A stretch of 37,150 nt of DNA from Patescibacteria group bacterium (GTDB lineage Bacteria; Patescibacteriota; Doudnabacteria; UBA920): contig JAMDAY010000018.1 of assembly GCA_023484515.1 (NCBI GenBank), positions 1-37,150 of the forward strand, in the 5' to 3' direction. The notes beneath the pieces were generated by a model. The model had not been told where the DNA came from. It did no database searches and saw only the letters and a program-made list of their open reading frames with translations. Position 1 is the first letter of the stretch. The number at the start of each line of letters is the position of its first letter. Below are positions 4,307 to 35,412 of the stretch, piece by piece. The position numbers and the translations under genes are program-made.

Positions 4307-4552
4307 ATGCCGCAAATGCAAAGTAAAGAGAAACAGAGCTGCCTAGTCGAACCCGGACTAGGCATGACGCTGGAAGGTTTCGTCGCTGTGGCAGAAGAGG
4401 CGGGAATTTTAGATTCCGATGTTCATTCCCTTTCGGGGAATTTCTACAGCCTCAGGTTGGATGACCGACAGAGACAAATTCTGTCGAAAGCAGGCTGCAC
4501 GGTTACGGAGTCGATAAATTCGCGGCTTCCAGACCCGTCACGATGGCGCTAG
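4307..4552 (+). CDS. orphan protein, 81 residues, in a complete single-gene unit
   Basis: The ATG at 4307 follows AAAGGAGG (4294-4301) at good spacing, so this start is preferred over the in-frame TTG at 4286. The protein is soluble and mixed alpha/beta in appearance (LEGFVAVAEEAGILD; FYSLRLDDRQRQILSKAGC) with two cysteines. No family is recognised. It has its own promoter (4243-4271) and a textbook terminator (4567-4597). The strong Shine-Dalgarno and codon choice differ from the core genes nearby, which mostly lack a Shine-Dalgarno, suggesting an acquired gene. The pattern ILSKAGCTV resembles small DNA- or RNA-associated proteins only superficially. Confidence 0.65.
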   Translation: MPQMQSKEKQSCLVEPGLGMTLEGFVAVAEEAGILDSDVHSLSGNFYSLRLDDRQRQILSKAGCTVTESINSRLPDPSRWR

Positions 4553-4566
4553 CCTGGATACCGTTG

Positions 4567-4597
4567 GGGCGGCGTGCGCGTCGCCCTATTTTTTTTT
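4567..4597 (+). terminator. intrinsic terminator
   Basis: GGGCGGCG (4567-4574) pairs with CGTCGCCC (4579-4586) around a TGCG loop and is followed by a run of nine T (4589-4597). Confidence 0.9.
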
Positions 4598-4703
4598 ATG
4601 ATTGATTAGCAAGCTGCTTGTAGTTGCCTAATTTATCAGATCATTAGAGACTCATAAATAAGTCAACCAACCCCAGAGCCCAATAGATTTGGCAACTATA
4701 GAA

Positions 4704-5903
4704 TCAAGGTTTAATAATAGCATTAGTTTGCCCAATTTTTTTCAAAATGCTTTTTGTTTCATCCGCCGTGGCCGGGCGGGGGGTGGAGTAGTTTTCTATA
4801 ATTACCGGGATTAGTTCTATGGCATCAAGCTTTGCCGCAATGCGCGGGCCCTGCAGGGTTGTTCCCGGGGCTGCCTGGTTTCCGTTTTGGTTTTGCGGGC
4901 CGGCGGCAGGCGCCCCGCTTTTGGACAAGGTAATTTTTAGCGCCAGGCCTTCTTTGGTGTCCCGGCTCCACTCCTGGTCAAAAATAAAATTTCCCAGGGA
5001 ATAAAAAATATACTTGCCGCGGTATTTTTCCACGGTCTGAACCCAGTGCGGATGCCCGCCTATTACCAGGTCCGCGCCGTCGTCTATGGCTGCGCGGGCA
5101 AAGTTAATCTGCGCCTCGCTGGGCTGGCGCGTGTATTCCGTACCCGCATGCATGGTGGCAACCACAAAATCGCAGGAAGATTTAAGGCTGGAAATTTCAG
5201 ACTTCAGGCTGGAAAGATTTTCAATCCTGGCCACGTAGTTGTTTGCGGTCTTGCCGTTGTCGTTGACGGAAGCGTAAGACGCGCCAGCAAAGCAGATTTT
5301 TATCCCGTTGGCGTCAACCGCGGCCGGCTGCCAGGCTTCCTTTAAATTGTCCCCCGTGCCAACGTGCCGGATGCCGTTTCGGTCCAGGTATTGCATGGTG
5401 TAATCCAGGCCGCTTATGCCTTGGTCAAGCGCGTGGTTATTCGCAAGGTTAAGAATTTTAAAATTAAAATCAACCAGGCCCTGGGCGTAGTCTGCGGGAG
5501 CGGCAAAGGCCAGGGAATGTCCGCCTACAATGCCGCTGCCGGGAGAAAGAGGGGATTCCAGGTTGCCAAAACTGAAATTTACCGATTTTAAAATATCGGC
5601 CATGTCCCGGAAAGGCAGTTCATTGTCCGCAGATTTCCGGATAGCGCCGGCAACGCTGCGCGACAGCATAATGTCGCCTACGGCCAGGAAAGATGCCGTG
5701 GCCGGAGAATTTTGCGGGGTCAATTCCTGCGATCTTTGGTAATAGTTTTCCAGGCTGCCGTTGCTCTCCGGCAGCTCGGTCAGGCCTTTTTCCCGCGGCC
5801 CCTGTCCGGCATAAGGGTCTAGTCCGTGCTGCCACAACCCGAATGCCGCAGCCAGGACAAAGGCAATGGAAATAAAAATTTTCAAAAACGATTTTTTGGA
5901 CAT
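4704..5903 (-). CDS. CapA/PgsA-type membrane-anchored metallophosphatase
   Basis: This 399-residue protein has an N-terminal membrane anchor (about 6-24) and a CapA-family calcineurin-like domain. Motifs in order are AVGDIMLSR, FGNLESPLS, LANNHALDQG, ATMHAGTEY, GGHPHWVQ and YSLGNFIFDQ, which carry the Asp, Asn and His metal ligands of the family. CapA proteins take part in poly-gamma-glutamate or other envelope polymer synthesis, with the domain outside the membrane; here no polymer synthetase (CapB/CapC) is nearby, so the substrate is unknown. A low-complexity Gln/Asn/Pro/Gly stretch near residues 330-350 interrupts the C-terminal part. One copy of an 83-bp repeat lies 30 bases upstream of the ATG. 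Confidence 0.88.
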   Translation of the reverse strand: MSKKSFLKIFISIAFVLAAAFGLWQHGLDPYAGQGPREKGLTELPESNGSLENYYQRSQELTPQNSPATASFLAVGDIMLSRSVAGAIRKSADNELPFRDMADILKSVNFSFGNLESPLSPGSGIVGGHSLAFAAPADYAQGLVDFNFKILNLANNHALDQGISGLDYTMQYLDRNGIRHVGTGDNLKEAWQPAAVDANGIKICFAGASYASVNDNGKTANNYVARIENLSSLKSEISSLKSSCDFVVATMHAGTEYTRQPSEAQINFARAAIDDGADLVIGGHPHWVQTVEKYRGKYIFYSLGNFIFDQEWSRDTKEGLALKITLSKSGAPAAGPQNQNGNQAAPGTTLQGPRIAAKLDAIELIPVIIENYSTPRPATADETKSILKKIGQTNAIIKP

Positions 5904-5933
5904 TTTGTAAAATAGTTTAAGATGGGTGCTTCC

Positions 5934-6016
5934 CTATTGATCTCCGCAAAATCAGTTGAACAAATTTCGGCTTACTGATAACAAAAATTATTCAAGATAA
6001 TATGCGGGCCTCAATA
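5934..6016. repeat. 83-bp dispersed repeat, copy 1
   Basis: The reverse complement of this segment matches 14565-14647 at 81 of 83 bases by eye. Here it lies just upstream of the CapA-like gene, and the other copy lies just upstream of the yqeY-like gene, both in the same orientation relative to the gene. The two differences fall at the -10-like TATACT of copy 2, which reads TCAACT here. Confidence 0.9.
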
Positions 6017-6041
6017 GGCATATTCGCACGAATTAGCCTAT
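6014..6041. repeat. REP-like palindrome, copy A
   Basis: ATAGGCATATTCG, CA, CGAATTAGCCTAT: the arms pair except for a 2-base internal loop. Related palindromes occur at 16490-16515 and 16821-16850. This copy abuts the 83-bp repeat. Confidence 0.6.
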
Positions 6042-6134
6042 GGAAGGGGCACTATACTGCCTAAACAAATAATTGCATGCGGCAGCCGCAATTGGCCATT
6101 GTAAATGATTTTAGCTCTTTGTGAAAATAAACCG

Positions 6135-7226
6135 TCATCTCGCCAGCACGTATTGCTGGCCGCCCAGGTTCCTAACTTTACCTTTAATTTCCAAAAAAGT
6201 CAAAGCTGACATTATTTCCTGGGCTGCCATTTCCGACTGCTTGATCAGCTCGTTAATATGGACAGGCTCAAAGCCCAGGATTTTCAAGATTAAAGTTTCG
6301 GCCGGGGAGTCGCCGAACATTTGTTGCGCGGTTTTTTCCTCGGGCAGCCGCTTTAAGTTAAGTTCCTCCAATATGTCGTTGGCGGAAGTTAAAGGCCGCG
6401 CGCCCATTTTGATCAAATTGTTCGGCCCCTTGCTGGTGTCGGCAAAAATCGGGCCCGGCACGGCGAACACGGCCCGGTTCTGTTCCAAGGCGTATTTGGC
6501 GGTTATGAGCGAGCCGCTTTTTAAATTGCACTCAATGATAATTGTAGCCACGGAGAGCCCCGAAATAATGCGGTTGCGGGACACAAAATGGTGCTTGAGC
6601 GGGGGAGTGCCAATGGGGTGCTCGCTTAAAATAGCGCCGCCGCATTTTAATATTTCTTCAGCCAGCCAAACGTGCTCTTTGGGATAAAAGGCTTTTTCGT
6701 CCAGCCCGCCTCCCAGGACGGCAATGGTGCGGCGGCCTTTTTGCACGGCCAGTTGCTGGACCGCGGAGTCCACGCCGTAAGCCAGGCCGGAAACCAGGGT
6801 CAGGCCGGCATCTGCCAGGGGCCCCACTGCGTAAGGTATTACGGTCCGCCCGTAATTGGTTATCATCCTCGTCCCGACGACTGACACGCACAGTTCCTCG
6901 GCCGAAAGCATTGTCCCTTTGTAATAAATAATCGGCGGGAATTTGGAGATTTCCAAAAGGAGCTTGGGATAATTGCTGTCCCGGAAATCCAGGATGTGAA
7001 TATTTTCCGCTTCCAATTTTTTTATTTCCTCGGCCAGGTCAATTTTTTCCCGATGGCTTAAAAACATCCGGGATATTTCCGGCTCTATGCCTGCGGCCGC
7101 AAGCTGGCTTTCCGAAGCCTGGTAAGCCCGGCTAAAATTGCCGAAATATCCGGCCAGATGCATCAGCCTGGCCGGCCCGAATTGGGGGAGCAAATTAAAA
7201 GCATGGAGATAAAATTTGTCTTCCAT
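6135..7226 (-). CDS. dprA: DNA-processing protein DprA
   Basis: DprA (also Smf) binds incoming single-stranded DNA and loads RecA during natural transformation. The protein has an N-terminal SAM/HhH-like region (LLPQFGPARLMHL), the Rossmann-fold DprA domain with VVGTRMITNYG, LVSGLAYGVDSAVQQLA, TIAVLGGGLD, YP, GTPPLKHHFVSRNRIISGLS and GSLITAKYALEQNR, and a C-terminal winged helix (from SPAETLILKIL) ending GGQQYVLAR. Start: the frame extends to a TTG at 7280, but the ATG at 7226 (363 residues, MEDKFYLHAFNLLP) starts where the family normally does. comEC at the right edge of the window is its expected partner. Confidence 0.93.
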   Translation of the reverse strand: MEDKFYLHAFNLLPQFGPARLMHLAGYFGNFSRAYQASESQLAAAGIEPEISRMFLSHREKIDLAEEIKKLEAENIHILDFRDSNYPKLLLEISKFPPIIYYKGTMLSAEELCVSVVGTRMITNYGRTVIPYAVGPLADAGLTLVSGLAYGVDSAVQQLAVQKGRRTIAVLGGGLDEKAFYPKEHVWLAEEILKCGGAILSEHPIGTPPLKHHFVSRNRIISGLSVATIIIECNLKSGSLITAKYALEQNRAVFAVPGPIFADTSKGPNNLIKMGARPLTSANDILEELNLKRLPEEKTAQQMFGDSPAETLILKILGFEPVHINELIKQSEMAAQEIMSALTFLEIKGKVRNLGGQQYVLAR

Positions 7227-7273
7227 AAGAAAAGCGGCATTTCTTCCCTTATATATAGCAAATTTAAGAAGCC

Positions 7274-7302
7274 TTGACAAACTGCTTTAAAAGGTGTATT
7301 AT
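7274..7302 (+). promoter_or_regulatory. strong promoter facing away from dprA
   Basis: A perfect -35 TTGACA (7274-7279) and TATTAT (7297-7302) are 17 bases apart. No coding gene lies downstream on this strand; the next genes are all on the minus strand. It therefore most likely drives the structured RNA at 7309-7545. Confidence 0.6.
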
Positions 7303-7308
7303 TATATA

Positions 7309-7545
7309 TACTAGTTTTTTAAGATTATCAAAAAAATAAGGGAAATTTGGGGGTTTTTATATTTCCCAGTTTGTCGGCCCGGCAGCGTCAAATAGTTGTA
7401 TCCGGCATCCTACATGCAAGTCGCGAAAGCAGGTGTCATCCCTCCTATCACTTGCTCCTAGCAACAAGCAAAGGTTTGCAGGCGATTGTCTACAGCCTTT
7501 CACTTGCAGGTAGGGTGCCGGGTATAAACAAATAGCCGCCTTTCC
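7309..7545 (+). ncRNA. putative structured non-coding RNA of unknown class
   Basis: This 368-base gap has no credible plus-strand gene but contains a long stem: 7396-7421 pairs with 7502-7527 at 25 of 26 positions, three of them G-U pairs, which indicates folding as RNA. Inside are small hairpins such as TTGCT/AGCAA and GCAAA/TTTGC. A separate hairpin GGGAAAT/ATTTCCC lies at 7340-7367. CCCGGCA at 7378-7384 could pair with TGCCGGG at 7516-7522 and so compete with the main stem. A pyrimidine-rich tract (7536-7552) may mark the end. I found no signature of SRP RNA, tmRNA or RNase P RNA. A 6S-like RNA is possible but unproven. Both ends are estimates. Confidence 0.45.
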
Positions 7546-7594
7546 TTTTTCTTTGAACCGCTGTATAGATCTTGCCTGGGCAAAGGCCGTAACA

Positions 7595-8170
7595 TCAATC
7601 CTGCAAAAATTTTTTTATTTCCATCCTGACTTTGGGAAAAATTTCATCCTGAAGTTTTTTTATTTCCTCGCCCGTAAAGTTTTGCAAGACAAAAGCTTCG
7701 GTCGGGGGAATAGCCTTGTCCGGGCGCGACTCTATGCCAATGCGGATGCGGCGGAAATTTTGCGTCCCCAGGCAGTCAATAATGCTTTGGACGCCTTTAT
7801 GCCCGGCGGCGGAAGAATCAACCGAGGAACGAAAAGTACCCAGCGGCAAATCTACATCGTCGTGGATAATCAGCAGGTCTGTTTTAAAGTCTAATTTGTA
7901 AAAATTACAAAAAAGCTTTAAAGCCTGCCCGGAATCGTTCATGTAGGTGAGCGGCTTCACGAATATTATTTTTTCTTGAGTTTGCCCCCCGCCGGCATTT
8001 GGAGAGGCAGGGGCAAGCCAAGAAAAAATATCGGATTTAAATTCCTTGCCCGGCCGCGCGGTCATAAAGCCGTCGTCGCCCAAAACATAGTCAACAGCCA
8101 AGAACCCCGCATTGTGGCGGGTATTTTTATATTGTTCTCCGGGATTTCCCAAGCCTGCGATAATTTTCAT
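7595..8170 (-). CDS. pth: peptidyl-tRNA hydrolase
   Basis: This 191-residue enzyme frees tRNA from prematurely released peptidyl-tRNA. It starts MKIIAGLGNPG, with N9, catalytic H19 in TRHNAGF, the YMNDSG motif and D104 in HDDVDLPLG. The loop usually written GHNG reads GHKG here, a substitution seen in some family members. Length is normal. It lies 86 bases downstream of der on the same strand, so the two may be cotranscribed. Confidence 0.95.
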   Translation of the reverse strand: MKIIAGLGNPGEQYKNTRHNAGFLAVDYVLGDDGFMTARPGKEFKSDIFSWLAPASPNAGGGQTQEKIIFVKPLTYMNDSGQALKLFCNFYKLDFKTDLLIIHDDVDLPLGTFRSSVDSSAAGHKGVQSIIDCLGTQNFRRIRIGIESRPDKAIPPTEAFVLQNFTGEEIKKLQDEIFPKVRMEIKKFLQD

Positions 8171-8256
8171 AAGGCGTCATTTTTTATACGTTTAATATTG
8201 TTCCATTAATATAGTTGTTCTTGTTTGGACTTTTTAGTCACCGCCGTTATATATCT

Positions 8257-9615
8257 TTATGCCTTGTCTTTGCCCCGCAACCTTAGGACGATCGGGGTGC
8301 CCCAGAAATCCAGGTTTTTAATTATGGAATTTTCCGCGAACTTGCGGAATTGCTGGGAAATGGCGGCGGGATGGTTGACTAAAAGTTCAAAGTGCGGGGG
8401 ATTAACGCCAGTTTGATGCAAAGAAAAAACCTTGGGCTTTTTTTGGTCGCGCAGCAGTTTGGGCGGGTTCTTTTTAAGCAGCCGGTTTAAAAATTCGCTC
8501 AAGGTTTGGTTGTCAACCTTTTTTTGTCGCCGGGCAAAAATGGGTTTTATGCCGGCAACCGCTTCGTCCAGGCTTTCGCCGGTCTTGCCGGAGACAAAAA
8601 ATACCGGGCACATCCAGAGGAAGGGGAAATGCAGGCTAATATAATCCTGCAATTTTCCGCGGTCGTCCGGATAAAGATCAATCTTAGTTGCTAGAATTAT
8701 GCAGCCTTTTTCCTGGGAAAAAATTTCCGCGGCCACGCGCTGGTCCTGCTTGGTTATTGGTTCGCTGGCGTCAATGACAAACAGGCATACGTCGCTGCGC
8801 CTGATAGATTTGAAGGTTTGGAAGCCGGCGTAAATGTCCGGCTGCTGCTGGCGGTATTCCTTTTTCTTTAATCCGGCAGTGTCTATAAAAGTATATTTTT
8901 GCCCGCCCGCCTCCATCTCGCTGTCAATGGCCGTGCGGGTAGTTCCGGGAACAGGGGATACTACCACCCTTTCTTCCTCAAGGATTCGGTTAAAGATGCT
9001 GCTTTTGCCCACATTGGGCTTGCCGACAATGGCTACGGAAATTTTTTCGCCTTCCAATTGTCGGTCAATCCTTTCCTTGTCTGTGGCGGCAGCCAAAGGG
9101 CGCAAAGTGTCGGCCAGATAATCCAGCATATCGCCAATCCCGCTGCCGTTTAAAGCGGAAACGGGGAAAATGGGTTTTATGCCCAGTGACCGGAATTCGG
9201 CCAACTTTTCTTCCCGTTGGGAAATTGACTCCAGCTTGTTTACCGCCAATAGGACCGGCTTAGGGATTTTGCGGAACTTGCGCAAAACCGGTTGGTCCAC
9301 GCTGGCGCGGTTAAGCCGGCCGTCCACCAAGAAAATTATGGTGTCGGCCTGGTCCAGGGCGGTTTGGATTTGCTCGTTTACGCTGCGCTCCAGCCCCTCG
9401 GAAGCGTCCAGGGACAGGCCGGCGGTATCCACTAGCGTAAAATTTACGCCATTCCACGAGGTGTCCGCATACTGGCGGTCGCGGGTAGTGCCAGGCACAG
9501 GCGAAGTAACGGCCAAGCGGTTTCCGCTGATCTTATTCAGCAGCGTGGACTTGCCCGCGTTCGGCTGCCCGACAATGGCGACTATGGGGAGGGTTTTTGG
9601 CGAGAGGGAACTCAT
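8257..9615 (-). CDS. der: ribosome biogenesis GTPase Der (EngA)
   Basis: Der is a double GTPase needed for 50S subunit assembly. The first G domain has GQPNAGKS (16-23), DTAG (63-66) and NKLE (126-129). The second has GKPNVGKS (198-205), DTAG and a TKID guanine-specificity motif. A KH-like domain follows (from about residue 360, LSEFLNRLLKKNPP), ending with the family pattern FWGTPIVLRLR. The 452-residue length is usual. In the first G domain the G4 motif NKxD has Glu in place of Asp, which could weaken guanine selectivity of that domain. The ATG at 9615 is followed closely by the first P-loop, as expected. Confidence 0.96.
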   Translation of the reverse strand: MSSLSPKTLPIVAIVGQPNAGKSTLLNKISGNRLAVTSPVPGTTRDRQYADTSWNGVNFTLVDTAGLSLDASEGLERSVNEQIQTALDQADTIIFLVDGRLNRASVDQPVLRKFRKIPKPVLLAVNKLESISQREEKLAEFRSLGIKPIFPVSALNGSGIGDMLDYLADTLRPLAAATDKERIDRQLEGEKISVAIVGKPNVGKSSIFNRILEEERVVVSPVPGTTRTAIDSEMEAGGQKYTFIDTAGLKKKEYRQQQPDIYAGFQTFKSIRRSDVCLFVIDASEPITKQDQRVAAEIFSQEKGCIILATKIDLYPDDRGKLQDYISLHFPFLWMCPVFFVSGKTGESLDEAVAGIKPIFARRQKKVDNQTLSEFLNRLLKKNPPKLLRDQKKPKVFSLHQTGVNPPHFELLVNHPAAISQQFRKFAENSIIKNLDFWGTPIVLRLRGKDKA

Positions 9616-29213: not shown

Positions 29214-29654
29214 ATGGAAAAATTTTTAATGCAAGAAACCCCGGAAAAAGTAGTGGCTTTGTTGGGGACCGCCTTGGCTTCGCTGTTCATGCTGTTCGTG
29301 GTCACCAGCACCAATGCCAGCTTTCAGGGACAGGAGTTAAGTTTTCCCGACCCTTTTGCTCCGGCAAAAGTGGTCAGTATGCTGGACAACGCGGCCCACG
29401 GCTACAGCCAGTTCGTGGCCGTGCAGTTGGTTCGGCCGGGCGCGCAAAGCTATGCCTTGGCAGCGGACAATATCCGCTGGGTCATAGACAACAGCGATGA
29501 GGCAATTTTAACCTATACCGGGTTAAAGCCCTTGGCCGCGGTGGACGCTTTCCAAACCGTGCCCAAGCCGCAAGTTGCCGGCGCCTTTACTTCGCGCCAA
29601 CCCGCGCCGCCAACTTCCCTCATAGATTCGCTTTACTCGTTCTTGATTAAATGA
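29214..29654 (+). CDS. small membrane-anchored orphan protein, 146 residues
   Basis: The N-terminal hydrophobic segment (about 13-31, VVALLGTALASLFMLFVVT) is an anchor or signal peptide. The rest is probably outside the membrane and ends with a Pro-rich stretch and a short amphipathic tail (LIDSLYSFLIK). No family is recognised. It has its own promoter, a long structured leader and a strong terminator. Its regulation resembles the secreted proteins at 20098 and 21732. Confidence 0.7.
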   Translation: MEKFLMQETPEKVVALLGTALASLFMLFVVTSTNASFQGQELSFPDPFAPAKVVSMLDNAAHGYSQFVAVQLVRPGAQSYALAADNIRWVIDNSDEAILTYTGLKPLAAVDAFQTVPKPQVAGAFTSRQPAPPTSLIDSLYSFLIK

Positions 29655-29955: not shown

Positions 29956-29984
29956 TTGACTTCTACTACATCTAGTATTATGAT
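29956..29984 (+). promoter_or_regulatory. promoter of the nrdR-nrdJ unit
   Basis: TTGACT (29956-29961) and TATGAT (29979-29984) are 17 bases apart. The leader before the nrdR ATG is about 170 bases. Confidence 0.6.
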
Positions 29985-30011
29985 AAGAAAGGTGTCTACC
30001 ATATATGGTAG
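29963..30011 (+). promoter_or_regulatory. pair of putative NrdR boxes on the nrdR promoter
   Basis: CTACTACATCTAGTAT (29963-29978) fills the promoter spacer, and the perfect palindrome CTACCATATATGGTAG (29996-30011) lies just after the start site. Their starts are 33 bp apart, about three helical turns. Known NrdR boxes are 16-bp palindromes with an ATATAT centre that occur in pairs at this spacing. The half-sites differ from the published ACACWAT form, so this lineage may have its own version. Confidence 0.6.
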
Positions 30012-30160
30012 AAAACCTTTTCTGGGAAATACAAATAAAATTGGTTGTAAGGCTAAAATTGGCCCGCTGGAGGGCTTAGCCCGTAAAGCCAGTAATTATA
30101 TAAGGGGAAGGCTTGCAAGAGGGTATTTTAATATCCTTCAAATAATCATAATAATCTTAT

Positions 30161-30607
30161 ATGCGATGCCCAAATTGCCAGAATGAAGACACCAAGGTCC
30201 TGGACAGCCGTCCCGTGGACGAAGGCAATGCCATCAGGCGCCGGCGCGAGTGCGAAAAGTGCGAATTCAGGTTTTCCACCTACGAAGAGATGGAAATTCT
30301 TGACCTTAGCGTAATAAAGAAGGACGGCCGTAAAGAATTATATAGCAGGGAAAAGCTGGAAAGGGGAATTCGCCGCGCGTTTGAAAAGCGCCCCCACACC
30401 GATGACACCCTGCGCAAGCTGGTTTCGGCCATAGAACAGGATATCCAAAAAAAGGCCTCTGGCGGGGAAATTAAGGCCTTGGAGATTGGGGAGGTTGTAA
30501 TGAAAAAAATCAAACGGGTGGACAAAATTGCCTACATCCGCTTTGCCTCGGTCTACCGCCAGTTTGAAGACGTGGAAGAGTTTAAGGCGGAACTGAAAAA
30601 ACTTTAG
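30161..30607 (+). CDS. nrdR: transcriptional repressor NrdR
   Basis: This 148-residue protein has a zinc finger C3xxC6 and C31xxC34 (MRCPNCQ; CEKCEFRF) followed by an ATP-cone domain (about 46-136) that senses ATP/dATP. NrdR represses ribonucleotide reductase genes when dATP is high. It is followed by the reductase gene, its expected target, 275 bases downstream. The palindromes at 29963-30011 suggest that it also controls itself. No Shine-Dalgarno is evident. Confidence 0.96.
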   Translation: MRCPNCQNEDTKVLDSRPVDEGNAIRRRRECEKCEFRFSTYEEMEILDLSVIKKDGRKELYSREKLERGIRRAFEKRPHTDDTLRKLVSAIEQDIQKKASGGEIKALEIGEVVMKKIKRVDKIAYIRFASVYRQFEDVEEFKAELKKL

Positions 30608-30678
30608 GCTTTGCAGGAAAAGGTGGTTAAGTTTTATAAGAGTAAGCCAGTTTTTAGTCAGTGGGTGATTTAAATTCC

Positions 30679-30791
30679 AAATTACAAATACCAAATAACA
30701 AACAAAATCCAAAATTTAAATATCAATTAGTAAAATTTGATGTTAAGAAATTGGAATTTGGCAGTTGGAGTTTATTTGAAATTTGTAATTT
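30679..30791. repeat. A/T-rich inverted repeat between nrdR and nrdJ
   Basis: AAATTACAAAT (30679-30689) pairs with ATTTGTAATTT (30781-30791). The interval is low-complexity (CCAAAT, AACAAA units). A similar CCAAAT-rich tract lies at 34380-34440. I see no gene and no B12 riboswitch in 30608-30882. Confidence 0.45.
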
Positions 30792-30882
30792 GAGATTTGA
30801 AATTTATCCTTACAATTAACTTGTCCGCGACGTGTTCCGCGAGGGGAAAAGGAATAACGAAAGGACTGGAAATTAGAACGAT

Positions 30883-33579
30883 ATGCAACTGAAAGAAAAT
30901 CTGCAAGCAAGAAAGGCCAATGCCTTAAGCGAATTGGGGGAGAAAATATTTTTGGACCGTTACGCGCTGAAAGACGTCAAGCGCGCGACTTTGGAAGAAG
31001 GCGACACGGTCGTGGTCATGGTCAACCCCAAAACCGGGCAGCGGGAAATTGGGGCCATTGAATCCATAGACCGGGGCAACCGGCAGGCAATGGTGCGCTT
31101 GCGTGACGGCCAGGTGGAACAGCGGGCGTTTGAACACATAGACAAGCCTTTGGAAGTTTTGCCGGAGCAGATGTTCCAGCGCGTGGCTAAACATATTTCC
31201 AGCGCGGAAAAAACCGGAGAAAAGCGCGCGGAGTGGGAGGAGAAATTCAAGTTTTTAATGGATGACTGGAAATACACGCCGGGCGGCAGGATTTACGCGG
31301 GTTCCGGTTCCAGCAACCTTTCTTTTTACAATTGTTTTGTCATTCCCAACCCGCATGACAGCCGCAACGGGATTTTTGAAACCTTGCGCCAGATGGCCGA
31401 AATAATGTCGCGCGGCGGCGGCGTGGGTATTAACGTATCTTCCCTGCGCCCGCGCTATTCTTACGTAAAAGGCGTAAACGGGCGGTCGTCCGGAAGCGTG
31501 TCCTGGGCTTCGCTTTACAGTTTTGTCACCGGCTTAATTGAGCAGGGCGGCAGCCGGCGCGGCGCCCTTATGCTAATTTTAAACGTTTGGCATCCGGACA
31601 TAATGGATTTTATTAATGCCAAAAAGGAAGCGGGCAAAATAACCAATGCCAATATTTCAGTGGGGATAACCGACGACTTTATGCAGGCGGTCAAGGAAGA
31701 TTTGTCCTGGGACCTGGTCTTTCCGGACACGACCGACCCGCTTTACGAAAAAAATTGGGAGGGGAATTTGGCCAAATGGAAAGAGCAGGGCGGCAAGGTT
31801 ATAAAGCACAAGACCGTGCGCGCCGCGGACATTTGGGACACCATTATTTCTTCGGCCTGGTCCAGCGCCGAGCCCGGGGTCTACTTTATTGACCGCGCCG
31901 CGCATTTTTCCAATTCCTGGTATTTTGCGGATTTGCCCTGTACCAACCCTTGCGGCGAGCAGCCGTTGCCGGCCTGGGGCGTGTGCAATTTGGGCCATGT
32001 GAATTTGGCCAAACACGTAAGCGAGGAAAGCGGAGAGGTGGCGTGGAACGAGTTAAAGCAGACCGTGCAATACGCGGTCCGGTTCCAGGACAACGTGGTG
32101 GACGCGACTCCGTACTTTTTTGAGGAAAACAAGCGCCAGCAAATGTCGGAAAGACGCATCGGCTTGGGTACTATCGGTTTGGCCGAGATGCTGATTAAAT
32201 TAGGTTTGCGCTACGGCAGCGAAGAGGCGGTAAAATTTATTGACAAGCTGTACCAATTTATTTCGGTAACGGCTTATGAAACTTCCGTGGAATTGGCCCG
32301 CGAAAAAGGCCCGTTCCCCAAGTTTGAGGCGGAAAAATATTTGCAAAGCGGGTTTATGAAAGCCATGCCGCAGTACATTCGCGACCTGGTGGCCAAGTAC
32401 GGCATCCGCAACGTGACCATTTTAACCCAGGCTCCCACGGGGTCGGTCGGCACCATGGTCGGTACTTCCACCGGCATTGAGCCGTTCTTTTCCTGGACGT
32501 ATTTCCGGAAGAGCCGTATTGGCGTGCACCAGGAAAAAATTAAAATTGCCCAGCAGTGGGCAGACCAGCATCCCGGGCAGGAATTGCCGAAATTTTTTGC
32601 CACGGCCATGGAGCTTACGCCGGAAGAACACGTGCGCGTGCAGGCCGCAGTGCAGCGCTGGACCGACAGCGCCATTTCCAAAACCGTAAACGCGCCTGCC
32701 GACTACACCGTGGAGCAGACCAAACAGCTTTACACTTTGTTATTTGATTTAGGCTGCAAGGGCGGCACTATTTATCGTGACGGATCGCGTGATGAACAAG
32801 TGTTGGCGACTGACCATAAAAAGTTGGGCAAGGACGCGGCGCAGCAGGTGGAAGCCAAAATGAAAAGCCTGGCGGCCGGATCGGAAGGCGCGGCTGCACC
32901 TGCCGCAGCCAAGCCGCAGGAAGTAATGTCCGTGACCGGCGACAACGTGCAAATTAAATACATCCCGCGCCAGCGGCCCGACATTATGGCCGGCATCACT
33001 TATAAGATGAATACGGCTTACGGCAACCTTTACGTGACCATAAACGAAGACGCGCAGGGGCCGTTTGAGGTGTTTGCCCAAATGGGCAAGGCCGGCGGGT
33101 TCTTTAGCGCGCAGACCGAAGCCATTACCAGGATGATTTCCCTGGCTTTGCGTTCCAACATTGCCATAGAGGAAATTGTGGACCAGCTCAAGGGTATCCG
33201 CGGCCCGGAAGTAAGTTTTAGCGGCGGCCAGGTGGTGTTTTCCCTGCCCGACGCCATTGCCAAAGTTTTGGAAAAGCACTTAAAGCGGGAAGACAAGCAG
33301 TTAAGCCTGGACCTGCCCGCACCTGAAAATCCCAAAGAACTTTTGTCCCCGGATATTCCTCTTAAAGCCAAGGAAGCGGCTATGGTAAAAGAAGAGATCC
33401 GCGAAACCGTGGCCGAAGAAAAAATTAAAACGAATGGAAGCTTAACTTACAAGAAAACGCAAAAAGTTTCCATTGCCAACTTGGGTAACGCGCCGGTCTG
33501 CCCGACCTGCGCCAGCATGATGCTGTTTGCCGAAGGCTGCATGAAATGCGACGTGTGCGGGTATTCCAAGTGCGGCTAG
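30883..33579 (+). CDS. nrdJ: B12-dependent (class II) ribonucleotide reductase
   Basis: This 898-residue enzyme reduces ribonucleotides to deoxyribonucleotides with adenosylcobalamin as radical source. It has C151 (SFYNCFV, one of the redox pair), the active-site loop N355-P-C357-G-E359, the finger-loop TQAPTGSVGTMVGTSTGIEP, a TSCPD-type domain from about 714 (GNLYVTINEDAQGPFEVF), and a C-terminal cysteine tail: C873xxC876, C886, C889, C892, C897. Relative to usual members an extra beta-rich segment of about 60 residues (31-91, DTVVVMVNPKTGQ to RAFEHIDKPL) is inserted in the N-terminal region. A variable Ala-rich linker lies near 660-690. A cobalamin adenosyltransferase gene follows 101 bases downstream, so cofactor and enzyme are made together. 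Confidence 0.96.
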   Translation: MQLKENLQARKANALSELGEKIFLDRYALKDVKRATLEEGDTVVVMVNPKTGQREIGAIESIDRGNRQAMVRLRDGQVEQRAFEHIDKPLEVLPEQMFQRVAKHISSAEKTGEKRAEWEEKFKFLMDDWKYTPGGRIYAGSGSSNLSFYNCFVIPNPHDSRNGIFETLRQMAEIMSRGGGVGINVSSLRPRYSYVKGVNGRSSGSVSWASLYSFVTGLIEQGGSRRGALMLILNVWHPDIMDFINAKKEAGKITNANISVGITDDFMQAVKEDLSWDLVFPDTTDPLYEKNWEGNLAKWKEQGGKVIKHKTVRAADIWDTIISSAWSSAEPGVYFIDRAAHFSNSWYFADLPCTNPCGEQPLPAWGVCNLGHVNLAKHVSEESGEVAWNELKQTVQYAVRFQDNVVDATPYFFEENKRQQMSERRIGLGTIGLAEMLIKLGLRYGSEEAVKFIDKLYQFISVTAYETSVELAREKGPFPKFEAEKYLQSGFMKAMPQYIRDLVAKYGIRNVTILTQAPTGSVGTMVGTSTGIEPFFSWTYFRKSRIGVHQEKIKIAQQWADQHPGQELPKFFATAMELTPEEHVRVQAAVQRWTDSAISKTVNAPADYTVEQTKQLYTLLFDLGCKGGTIYRDGSRDEQVLATDHKKLGKDAAQQVEAKMKSLAAGSEGAAAPAAAKPQEVMSVTGDNVQIKYIPRQRPDIMAGITYKMNTAYGNLYVTINEDAQGPFEVFAQMGKAGGFFSAQTEAITRMISLALRSNIAIEEIVDQLKGIRGPEVSFSGGQVVFSLPDAIAKVLEKHLKREDKQLSLDLPAPENPKELLSPDIPLKAKEAAMVKEEIRETVAEEKIKTNGSLTYKKTQKVSIANLGNAPVCPTCASMMLFAEGCMKCDVCGYSKCG

Positions 33580-33680
33580 GAAAATATATTAACACGGATA
33601 CTGCAAACGTTAGAAAACATTGCCGATTAAAAAAGAACCACCTATTCAAAAAATGATTGAGAGTTTGGAAGTTTGAATTT

Positions 33681-34325
33681 ATGCCCAAAACAAAATCCCA
33701 CAATTTGCCGGTTGGCGGAAAAATGCCGGAAATTTTTTCCGACCAAACCAGGGGTTTGGTTATCTGTTATATTGGCGCGGGCAAGGGGAAGACCAGCGCG
33801 GCCATGGGTTTGGCCGCGCGCGCGGCGGGCAGCGGCAAGAATGTTTATATTTTGCAGTTCGTTAAAGCCAAGCCGGAAACGGGATTCGATGTAAAGAAAG
33901 GCGAATGGCCGCTTTCCAATGAAATTAATTTTTTTACCGAAATTTCATACCCGCGCACTGTTGGCAAAATAGAAACCGAACAGGCGGGCCTGGGGTTTGT
34001 GGGCATTTTGGGTGACGCCAAAGAGAAGCAAACCCATATCCGACAGGCGCTGCAAGGGCTGGAGCGCGCGCGGAACATAATTTTGTCAGGCAATTACGAG
34101 GTGGTAGTTTTGGACGAAATAATTTCCGCGCTGGAGTTAAAGTTAATAGAAGAGCGCGACATTTTGGACCTTATTGCCTTAAAGCCCAAAAATTTGCACT
34201 TGGTATTGACCGGACACAACAAATTCCCTAAAATTATAAAAGCGTGCGACCTGGTTACGGAAATGAAAATGGTCAGGCATCCTTACTACAAAGGCATTTT
34301 GGCGCAGGAGGGGATAGACTACTAA
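33681..34325 (+). CDS. cob(I)alamin/corrinoid adenosyltransferase (CobA/BtuR type)
   Basis: This 214-residue P-loop enzyme (GAGKGKTS at 32-39) has the CobA features NVYILQFVKAKPETG, a long helical middle (HIRQALQGLERARNIILSG), YEVVVLDEIISALELKLI and LVLTGHN, and ends with a tail carrying VTEMKMVRHPYYKGI. It transfers the adenosyl group of ATP to reduced corrinoid to make adenosylcobalamin, the cofactor of the reductase just upstream. The ATG at 33681 is used; a TTG at 33657 would add eight residues. No corrin ring synthesis genes are seen, so it should act on scavenged corrinoid. Confidence 0.93.
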   Translation: MPKTKSHNLPVGGKMPEIFSDQTRGLVICYIGAGKGKTSAAMGLAARAAGSGKNVYILQFVKAKPETGFDVKKGEWPLSNEINFFTEISYPRTVGKIETEQAGLGFVGILGDAKEKQTHIRQALQGLERARNIILSGNYEVVVLDEIISALELKLIEERDILDLIALKPKNLHLVLTGHNKFPKIIKACDLVTEMKMVRHPYYKGILAQEGIDY

Positions 34326-34420
34326 AATTTAGAGATTTAAGATATAAGATATAGGATATAAGATGTAAGATATCTTTATAAATTTCCAATATCAAATAAC
34401 CAATTTCCAATAAATTCCAA

Positions 34421-34861
34421 ATGACAAATTCCAAATTAAAAAAAGTAGGGAAATTACTGTTATTGTCAGCCGTTGTTTTTTTAGCCGCGGGATGCGGGAA
34501 AACGCAGCAGGCAAGCAATCCGCCGTCCGGCCAGCAGCAATTACAGCAGCCCGCCGGGCAGGACCGGGTAAAAATTATCAGCGTTTTCCAGACTGTCCAG
34601 GCTTCCAATTTTAACCAGCCCGGGCCTTATAATATAGAGGAAGGAAAGAGCACTCTGGATTTGCTGAAAACAACGCACCAGGTTGTTGCCAAGTCATACG
34701 GCGACATGGGGGAATTTGTGGAAAGCATAGACGGCATAAAGCCGGACAGTCAACACTTTTGGGCGTTTTATTTAAACGACCAGTCCAGCGACATAGGCGC
34801 TTCATCCTATGTTTTAAAGGATGGGGACAGGGTTGCGTGGAAAATGGAGGCAATAAAGTAG
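34421..34861 (+). CDS. DUF4430-type lipoprotein (transcobalamin-like domain)
   Basis: This 146-residue protein has a lipoprotein signal peptide with lipobox LAAGC (Cys at about residue 25), a Gln/Pro linker and one DUF4430-like domain (about 50-146): GKSTLDLLKTTHQ, SIDGIKPDSQHFWAFYLN, VLKDGDRVAWKME. DUF4430 is related to the C-terminal domain of the B12 carriers transcobalamin and intrinsic factor. Placed after the adenosyltransferase gene and before an ECF-S-like gene, it may be an outer-surface corrinoid-binding protein. The domain and lipobox are visible; B12 binding is inferred. Confidence 0.85.
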   Translation: MTNSKLKKVGKLLLLSAVVFLAAGCGKTQQASNPPSGQQQLQQPAGQDRVKIISVFQTVQASNFNQPGPYNIEEGKSTLDLLKTTHQVVAKSYGDMGEFVESIDGIKPDSQHFWAFYLNDQSSDIGASSYVLKDGDRVAWKMEAIK

Positions 34862-34896
34862 TTTCTACGAAATACTAAAATAACGAAATACGAAAT

Positions 34897-35412
34897 ATGA
34901 TTTACTTGATTATTGCTTTGGCCATAGCGGCACGTTTTATTCCTCATATGCCCAATTTCGCGCCGGTGACCGCGCTGGCAATTTTCAGCGCGGTATATTT
35001 GCCCAAAAAGCAGGCGGTTGCCATACCTTTGGCCGCAAGGCTTGTAAGCGATATTTTCTTGGGATTCTTCCAGTGGCCGTTAATGGTTGCGGTTTACGCT
35101 TCCCATCTAATTGGGGTTCTGTTCGGATTATGGATCAAGCGCACCAAAAATTATCGCTGGATAAAAATAGTCGGTTCCTCCTTGGGCGCTTCAATTATTT
35201 TTTTTGCGGTTACCAACTTCGCCTTTTTCTATCCTTATTATTCCCATAACATTGCTGGAATAATCCATTCCTATATAAACGCCTTGCCGTTTTTGCGCGG
35301 CACCGTGCTGGGGGATTTATCCTACACAACCGCCTTGTTTGGCAGCTATGAATTGGCGCGATATTTGTTGCGGCAAAAGGCAAAAAATCTCTTACCCCAA
35401 AACTCCGCTTAA
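34897..35412 (+). CDS. ECF transporter S-component-like membrane protein (DUF6580-like)
   Basis: This 171-residue protein has five or six hydrophobic segments. The pattern FAPVTALAIFSAVYL and RLVSDIFLGF near the N-terminus matches small substrate-binding S-components of energy-coupling factor transporters (DUF6580 group). S-components capture a vitamin and pass it to a shared EcfT/EcfA module, not present in this window. Its position 35 bases after the DUF4430 lipoprotein gene suggests that the substrate is a corrinoid. It ends in a hairpin whose loop contains the stop codon. Confidence 0.82.
   Translation: MIYLIIALAIAARFIPHMPNFAPVTALAIFSAVYLPKKQAVAIPLAARLVSDIFLGFFQWPLMVAVYASHLIGVLFGLWIKRTKNYRWIKIVGSSLGASIIFFAVTNFAFFYPYYSHNIAGIIHSYINALPFLRGTVLGDLSYTTALFGSYELARYLLRQKAKNLLPQNSA

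Follow-up and report, generated by a model that had tools for sequence, protein, structure and literature searches.

Gene sets comparable with the one described here are known from lactobacilli, and this kind of module is therefore already known. In Lactobacillus delbrueckii, the cluster nrdJ-cbrS-cbrT-pduO goes with the B12 transporter ECF-CbrT, whose S-component, CbrT, requires the ECF module, giving no growth when solitary (PMC5997447). For Lacticaseibacillus rhamnosus, a gene described as DUF4430 'of unknown function' has been placed close to rtpR in a report that also lists an 'additional lipoprotein component of putative cobalamin ECF transporter', which is not equated with the DUF4430 gene (PMC9963975). 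A further precedent is BtuM, which occurs in organisms without an ECF module, is encoded beside btuR, and possibly works by trapping through adenosylation; the accessible part of the BtuM report assigns the protein mostly to Gram-negative Proteobacteria with BtuB and describes there no DUF4430 partner (PMC6072759). For Patescibacteria, no corrinoid uptake route was found in the literature searched, nor was anything found there on Doudnabacteria and cobalamin; DUF6580 was likewise not mentioned in that search, which excluded subscription papers and preprints. A class II ribonucleotide reductase was nevertheless detected, by the thresholds used, in 214 of 315 evenly drawn patescibacterial genomes, about two thirds, so that corrinoid should be needed.

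The window analyzed here, a stretch of 37,150 nucleotides that represents contig C15 of a Candidatus Doudnabacteria genome (uncultured; 1.30 Mb, 98% complete), carries five genes in a row on the + strand, and all five, as listed in the earlier note, were confirmed by family profiles over the Pfam/TIGR cut-offs. They are nrdR, the repressor of ribonucleotide reductase genes (30161..30607; TIGR00244, 183 bits with a cut-off of 125; PF22811 and PF03477), nrdJ, the adenosylcobalamin-dependent class II ribonucleotide reductase (30883..33579; TIGR02504, PF02867, PF00317, and PF12637), cobA/btuR, the ATP:corrinoid adenosyltransferase (33657..34325; PF02572, 173 bits with a cut-off of 26), a DUF4430 lipoprotein gene (34421..34861; PF14478, 57 bits with a cut-off of 24), and a DUF6580 membrane protein gene (34897..35412; PF20221, 145 bits with a cut-off of 27), followed downstream by yggU and then comEC. 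A B12-dependent reductase, an extra component, an S-component-like protein, and an adenosyltransferase are found together, as in the L. delbrueckii cluster, from which the locus differs in that the adenosyltransferase is CobA/BtuR instead of PduO and that EcfT is absent from Doudnabacteria. As in L. rhamnosus, DUF4430 is encoded near a B12-dependent reductase; the L. rhamnosus locus has no DUF6580.

The enzyme calls made previously for NrdR, NrdJ, and the adenosyltransferase were upheld by the TIGR00244, TIGR02504, and PF02572 scores. NrdJ (898 aa, with a TSCPD domain and C-terminal cysteines) reached 604 bits with TIGR02504 (cut-off 400) and is a class II enzyme; CobA is a member of the CobA/CobO/BtuR Pfam family, lies below the stricter equivalog TIGR00708 (135 bits, cut-off 168), and has an uncertain start codon (TTG 33657, ATG 33681, or ATG 33723). 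The module had been taken to start at 29956, where no gene was found and the ORF was without support. The region 29956-30160 is non-coding but contains an NrdR-box pair (29963..30011, + strand), composed of box 1, CTACTACATCTAGTAT (29963-29978), and box 2, CTACCATATATGGTAG (29996-30011), at an offset of 33. Initial scans of the window at offsets of 20-22 and 30-32 found no such pair; the offset of 33 was taken from the offset spectrum over relatives, and a matrix built from 26 relatives, with the window excluded, then located the site at 26.6 bits, compared with 4.1 bits for the second-best separate site anywhere in the window. The score of the pair was matched by 0 of 2000 shuffles.

The DUF4430 protein of the window (146 aa) consists of a lipobox (LAAGC), a linker, and a C-terminal transcobalamin-beta-like domain, which was modelled mostly with pLDDT >90. 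Below E 1e-3, Foldseek matched this model only to the three carriers transcobalamin, haptocorrin, and intrinsic factor and to a single bacterial protein (3u7z); the rmsd to the isolated transcobalamin beta domain (5no0 and the cyanocobalamin-bound 5np4) was 1.9-2.0 Å. Family score and fold both place the protein among the transcobalamin-like beta domains (PF14478), the same Pfam family and the same fold as the beta domains of the three carriers. Unlike transcobalamin, it is a lipoprotein from a bacterium and has the beta domain alone; identity is ~20%, and the protein was rejected as a whole transcobalamin or intrinsic factor for want of the alpha-alpha toroid domain. Long relatives found elsewhere possess both the alpha-alpha toroid and the beta domain. 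The DUF4430 protein carries a lipobox in family f1 and most of f3, and an N-terminal hydrophobic helix takes its place in f2 and f4; tethering is therefore kept, and its chemistry is not.

The model of the DUF6580 protein (pLDDT 93) matched best with BtuM containing cyanocobalamin (8c7p; probability 1.00 and TM 0.63, at a modest E of 0.02); BtuM bound to hydroxocobalamin and further S-components ranked next. The S-component fold was thereby recognized, with BtuM and 4huq_S at the top and FolT and ThiT scoring lower. With the generic ECF S-component profile PF12822, the protein scored 17.7 bits, under the cut-off of 30.7, and falls outside that sequence family. Its earlier description as 'ECF-S-like' applies to the fold, but not to an ECF module, which is missing. 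Moreover, when the DUF6580 profile was run against PDB sequences, only one match was obtained, 6FNP chain A (E 2.4e-5, in a partial alignment of profile positions 4-76 with CbrT residues 16-91), which is ECF-CbrT itself (PMC5997447). In an alignment of 123 DUF6580 proteins, D52, F102, N107, Y115, and F132 were essentially invariant, and H17 was conserved in 88%. The AxxxA motif in helix 1, which docks S-components to EcfT, was rare (11 of the 123 proteins). No conserved cysteine was found, the best column having Cys in 34 of 123 proteins, whereas an invariant cysteine ligates cobalt in BtuM; DUF6580 is therefore BtuM-like, and its identification as a BtuM proper was rejected. The other features of BtuM, as represented by the Thiobacillus denitrificans protein, are shared, namely the fold, an organism without the ECF module, and a gene close to btuR, which adjoins btuM in T. 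denitrificans (PMC6072759). A plasmid search with DUF6580 gave no match.

Conservation of the locus was examined in 49 Doudnabacteria genomes, where NrdJ over the cut-off was found in 40, CobA in 44, DUF4430 in 35, and DUF6580 in 31. The block ftsZ..nrdR-nrdJ-cobA-DUF4430-DUF6580-(yggU)-comEC is common to about 30 of these genomes, a recurrence that places the arrangement far beyond chance. Apart from contig ends, the short DUF4430 gene and the DUF6580 gene are either both present or both absent within the class. Ten genomes (G022, G024, G025, G029, G039, and G044-G048) keep nrdR, nrdJ, and cobA at the locus and are devoid of the pair, which is therefore not strictly required, and another uptake route must serve there. 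In G043, nrdR is followed instead by genes for a class I NrdA (1272 bits against a cut-off of 965) and for NrdB, and cobA, DUF4430, and DUF6580 are all missing. This single replacement lies in the predicted direction, the DUF4430 and ECF-S-like genes having been expected to be absent where a class I enzyme replaces NrdJ.

Across the 315 patescibacterial genomes, DUF6580 and DUF4430 occurred together in 82, DUF6580 alone in 7, DUF4430 alone in 6, and neither in 220 (odds ratio 430); both were thus present in 82 of the 95 genomes having either one. The two genes lay within 500 bp on the same strand in 57 of the 82 genomes, with DUF4430 upstream in 55. The odds ratio for association of DUF6580 was 4.2 with NrdJ and 5.7 with CobA. 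RTPR is the other reductase family that depends on adenosylcobalamin; E-values decided whether it or NrdJ was counted as present, and its matches lie under the curated cut-off of the family. When RTPR was added to the NrdJ count, DUF6580 and a class II reductase were found together in 81 genomes, DUF6580 alone in 8, the reductase alone in 133, and neither in 93 (odds ratio 7.1, p 8e-9, a p-value that is too small because such tests ignore shared ancestry). The odds ratio was 6.5 outside Doudnabacteria and stayed at 4.7 to 7.1 on shifting the NrdJ threshold, and the pairing of DUF4430 with DUF6580 is too tight for shared ancestry to matter much. These results answer positively, for class II reductases, the earlier suggestion that the two genes cluster with nrdJ across the phylum; the clustering, though strong, has exceptions, as NrdJ and CobA occur without the pair in several Doudnabacteria. 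Among the 16 genomes with DUF6580 and NrdJ under the threshold, 8 have RTPR and 2 a partial NrdJ match. No class II enzyme was detected in G042, G062, G069, G199, G269, and G300; G069 and G300 have B12-radical SAM genes beside DUF6580, and G042 and G199, both at assembly breaks, have cobA nearby.

The window itself contains no B12 riboswitch at either the gathering or a permissive threshold, and the sole result among 11 Doudnabacteria loci searched was a distant and partial match to AdoCbl-II. For comparison, 46 patescibacterial loci outside Doudnabacteria, chosen by DUF6580 and not by riboswitch, were searched with Rfam, and 11 B12 riboswitches were found at the gathering score. Ten of them immediately precede the DUF4430/DUF6580 genes and share their strand (L125, L138, L140, L184, L186, L197, L202, L203, L204, and L205), and the eleventh lies just behind DUF6580 (L176); the chance of such placement, if uniform, is of the order of 1e-17. 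RTPR adjoins the pair in five genomes lacking NrdJ (L176 and L179-L182, with a different order in L179 and L181), and a B12-binding radical SAM gene adjoins DUF6580 in two loci without NrdJ (L175 and L183). Outside Patescibacteria, a DUF6580 gene lies downstream of a cobalamin riboswitch in Gemmataceae, an Omnitrophota genome has a riboswitch that separates DUF6580 from a TonB receptor gene, and DUF6580 is close to metH in Emticicia; many other Bacteroidota loci show no obvious link to B12 among the neighbours of DUF6580.

Collectively, co-occurrence, riboswitches, B12-enzyme neighbours, both folds, the CbrT match, and G043 support the earlier suggestion that the DUF4430 and DUF6580 proteins may handle corrinoid, and the pair very probably performs corrinoid uptake. 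We regard the locus as a whole, with good confidence, as a corrinoid scavenging-and-use module, for which we infer ligand binding, transport direction, hand-over, energetics, and co-transcription of the genes. Presumably, corrinoid would be bound by the transcobalamin-beta-like domain of the DUF4430 lipoprotein, anchored on the outside of the membrane, and be passed to DUF6580, a hand-over that we favour with some reserve. DUF6580, with its S-component fold, would then carry the corrinoid inward with no ECF ATPase module involved, a mode also proposed for BtuM, whereupon adenosylation by CobA would trap it in the cell and yield the cofactor that NrdJ would use to reduce ribonucleotides. Through the box pair in front of its own gene, NrdR may link expression to dNTP status. 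The wider proposal of a previously undescribed two-part, Patescibacteria-wide B12 uptake driven by adenosylation, with a tethered relative of the transcobalamin domain and an ATPase-free importer of S-component fold, appears to us evenly poised.

The proposed energetics have to be weighed against a reading in which corrinoid is imported by the pair, but with DUF6580 drawing its energy from an unrecognised ATPase or another partner and so not acting as a solitary transporter. An ECF module is required by most S-components, and no growth was supported by CbrT alone, the sole PDB sequence match of the DUF6580 profile. On the other hand, EcfT was found in 0 of 49 Doudnabacteria genomes by a search that did detect it in 10 of 14 control genomes and was run at the Pfam threshold, below which a diverged EcfT would escape; import is therefore probably ECF-free. 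The rarity of the AxxxA motif in DUF6580 and the ECF-independent function of BtuM, its best fold match, argue in the same direction, and an energised DUF6580 seems rather unlikely to us. The nature of the ligand is a separate matter: the pair could handle cobinamide, pseudocobalamin, or some other cobamide and not cobalamin itself, as CbrT (which takes up cobinamide) and the human carriers are promiscuous and corrinoid forms are not distinguishable from sequence. Nothing decisive speaks against such a substrate, complete cobamides being likelier by parsimony only, and we hold it for a minority possibility of some weight.

It might also be argued that DUF4430 and DUF6580 serve an unrelated nutrient and adjoin nrdJ and cobA through inherited gene order only, given that gene order in Doudnabacteria is conserved well past the B12 genes, to ftsZ, yggU, and comEC, and that B12 neighbours are missing from some DUF6580 loci of Bacteroidota. 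The B12 contexts recur, however, outside this neighbourhood, with riboswitches, RTPR, B12-radical SAM genes, and metH of Emticicia; both folds, moreover, match B12-binding proteins first, and the DUF6580 profile finds CbrT, all of which makes an unrelated nutrient very improbable.

Beyond the modules known from lactobacilli, the new elements under corrinoid uptake by the pair are the likely role of DUF6580 as a corrinoid importer, its apparent independence of the ECF module, and the tight DUF4430-DUF6580 pairing through Patescibacteria, together with the riboswitch evidence. A B12 role for these two unnamed families would make the corrinoid dependence of Patescibacteria testable with established E. 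coli assays and would place transcobalamin-type domains in minimal bacteria; if true, a solitary family of S-component fold would join the two examples in the literature, BtuM and some BioY. As for the use of the cofactor, NrdJ had been regarded as the only visible B12 user, which is not strictly right: contig C11 of the same genome carries a second candidate, a B12-binding/radical-SAM-like ORF with both domains below the curated cut-offs, and NrdJ therefore may not be the sole corrinoid user of this genome.

In the sample, class I ribonucleotide reductase genes for NrdA and NrdB were found behind nrdR in only one Doudnabacteria genome (G043; 4323–8460 of its neighbourhood L085), and in this genome the genes for cobA and for the proposed corrinoid capture and import pair, DUF4430 and DUF6580, are all gone. 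In genus g5 (G028, and also G026 and G027), the NrdJ encoded at this locus has a length of 1163 aa, as compared with roughly 900 aa in other members. This protein (in G028: L054, 6487–9978, minus strand) matches PRK07562 above the cut-off (1799 bits), and the nrdJ of this genus looks like a replacement by a foreign one. Furthermore, some Patescibacteria carry 3 or 4 NrdJ-like genes in tandem, surrounding cobA and the DUF4430–DUF6580 pair, as in G114 (L212, 2008–11750) and also in G061, G081, and G260.

Large DUF4430-related proteins of about 600–790 aa are encoded in the loci L088 (2001–3842, minus strand), L089, L090, and L093, and in L190 (4097–6463), L192 (3510–5468), and L184 (1831–4041). 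In the L088 protein, a squalene-cyclase/prenyltransferase-type toroid is followed by DUF4430, which is how the domains are ordered in transcobalamin and intrinsic factor. In the proteins of L190 and L192, DUF4430 is at the front. In six loci (L181, L184, L190, L192, L194, and L200), a gene for such a large protein separates the short DUF4430 gene from DUF6580, and that of L184 is under an AdoCbl riboswitch.

A possible second corrinoid user in the window's genome is a 455-aa ORF on contig C11 (50742–51041; L215, 750–2117, minus strand), whose B12-binding and radical SAM domains are both weak. In one Doudnabacteria genome, a partial AdoCbl-II riboswitch (L056, 906–960, minus strand) lies about 2.8 kb upstream of nrdR and does not adjoin the DUF4430–DUF6580 pair. 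Between ftsZ and nrdR of the window, a 146-aa ORF (29214–29654), which gave no match on comparison with Pfam and NCBIfam, is kept in Doudnabacteria family f1 and in some genomes of family f5.
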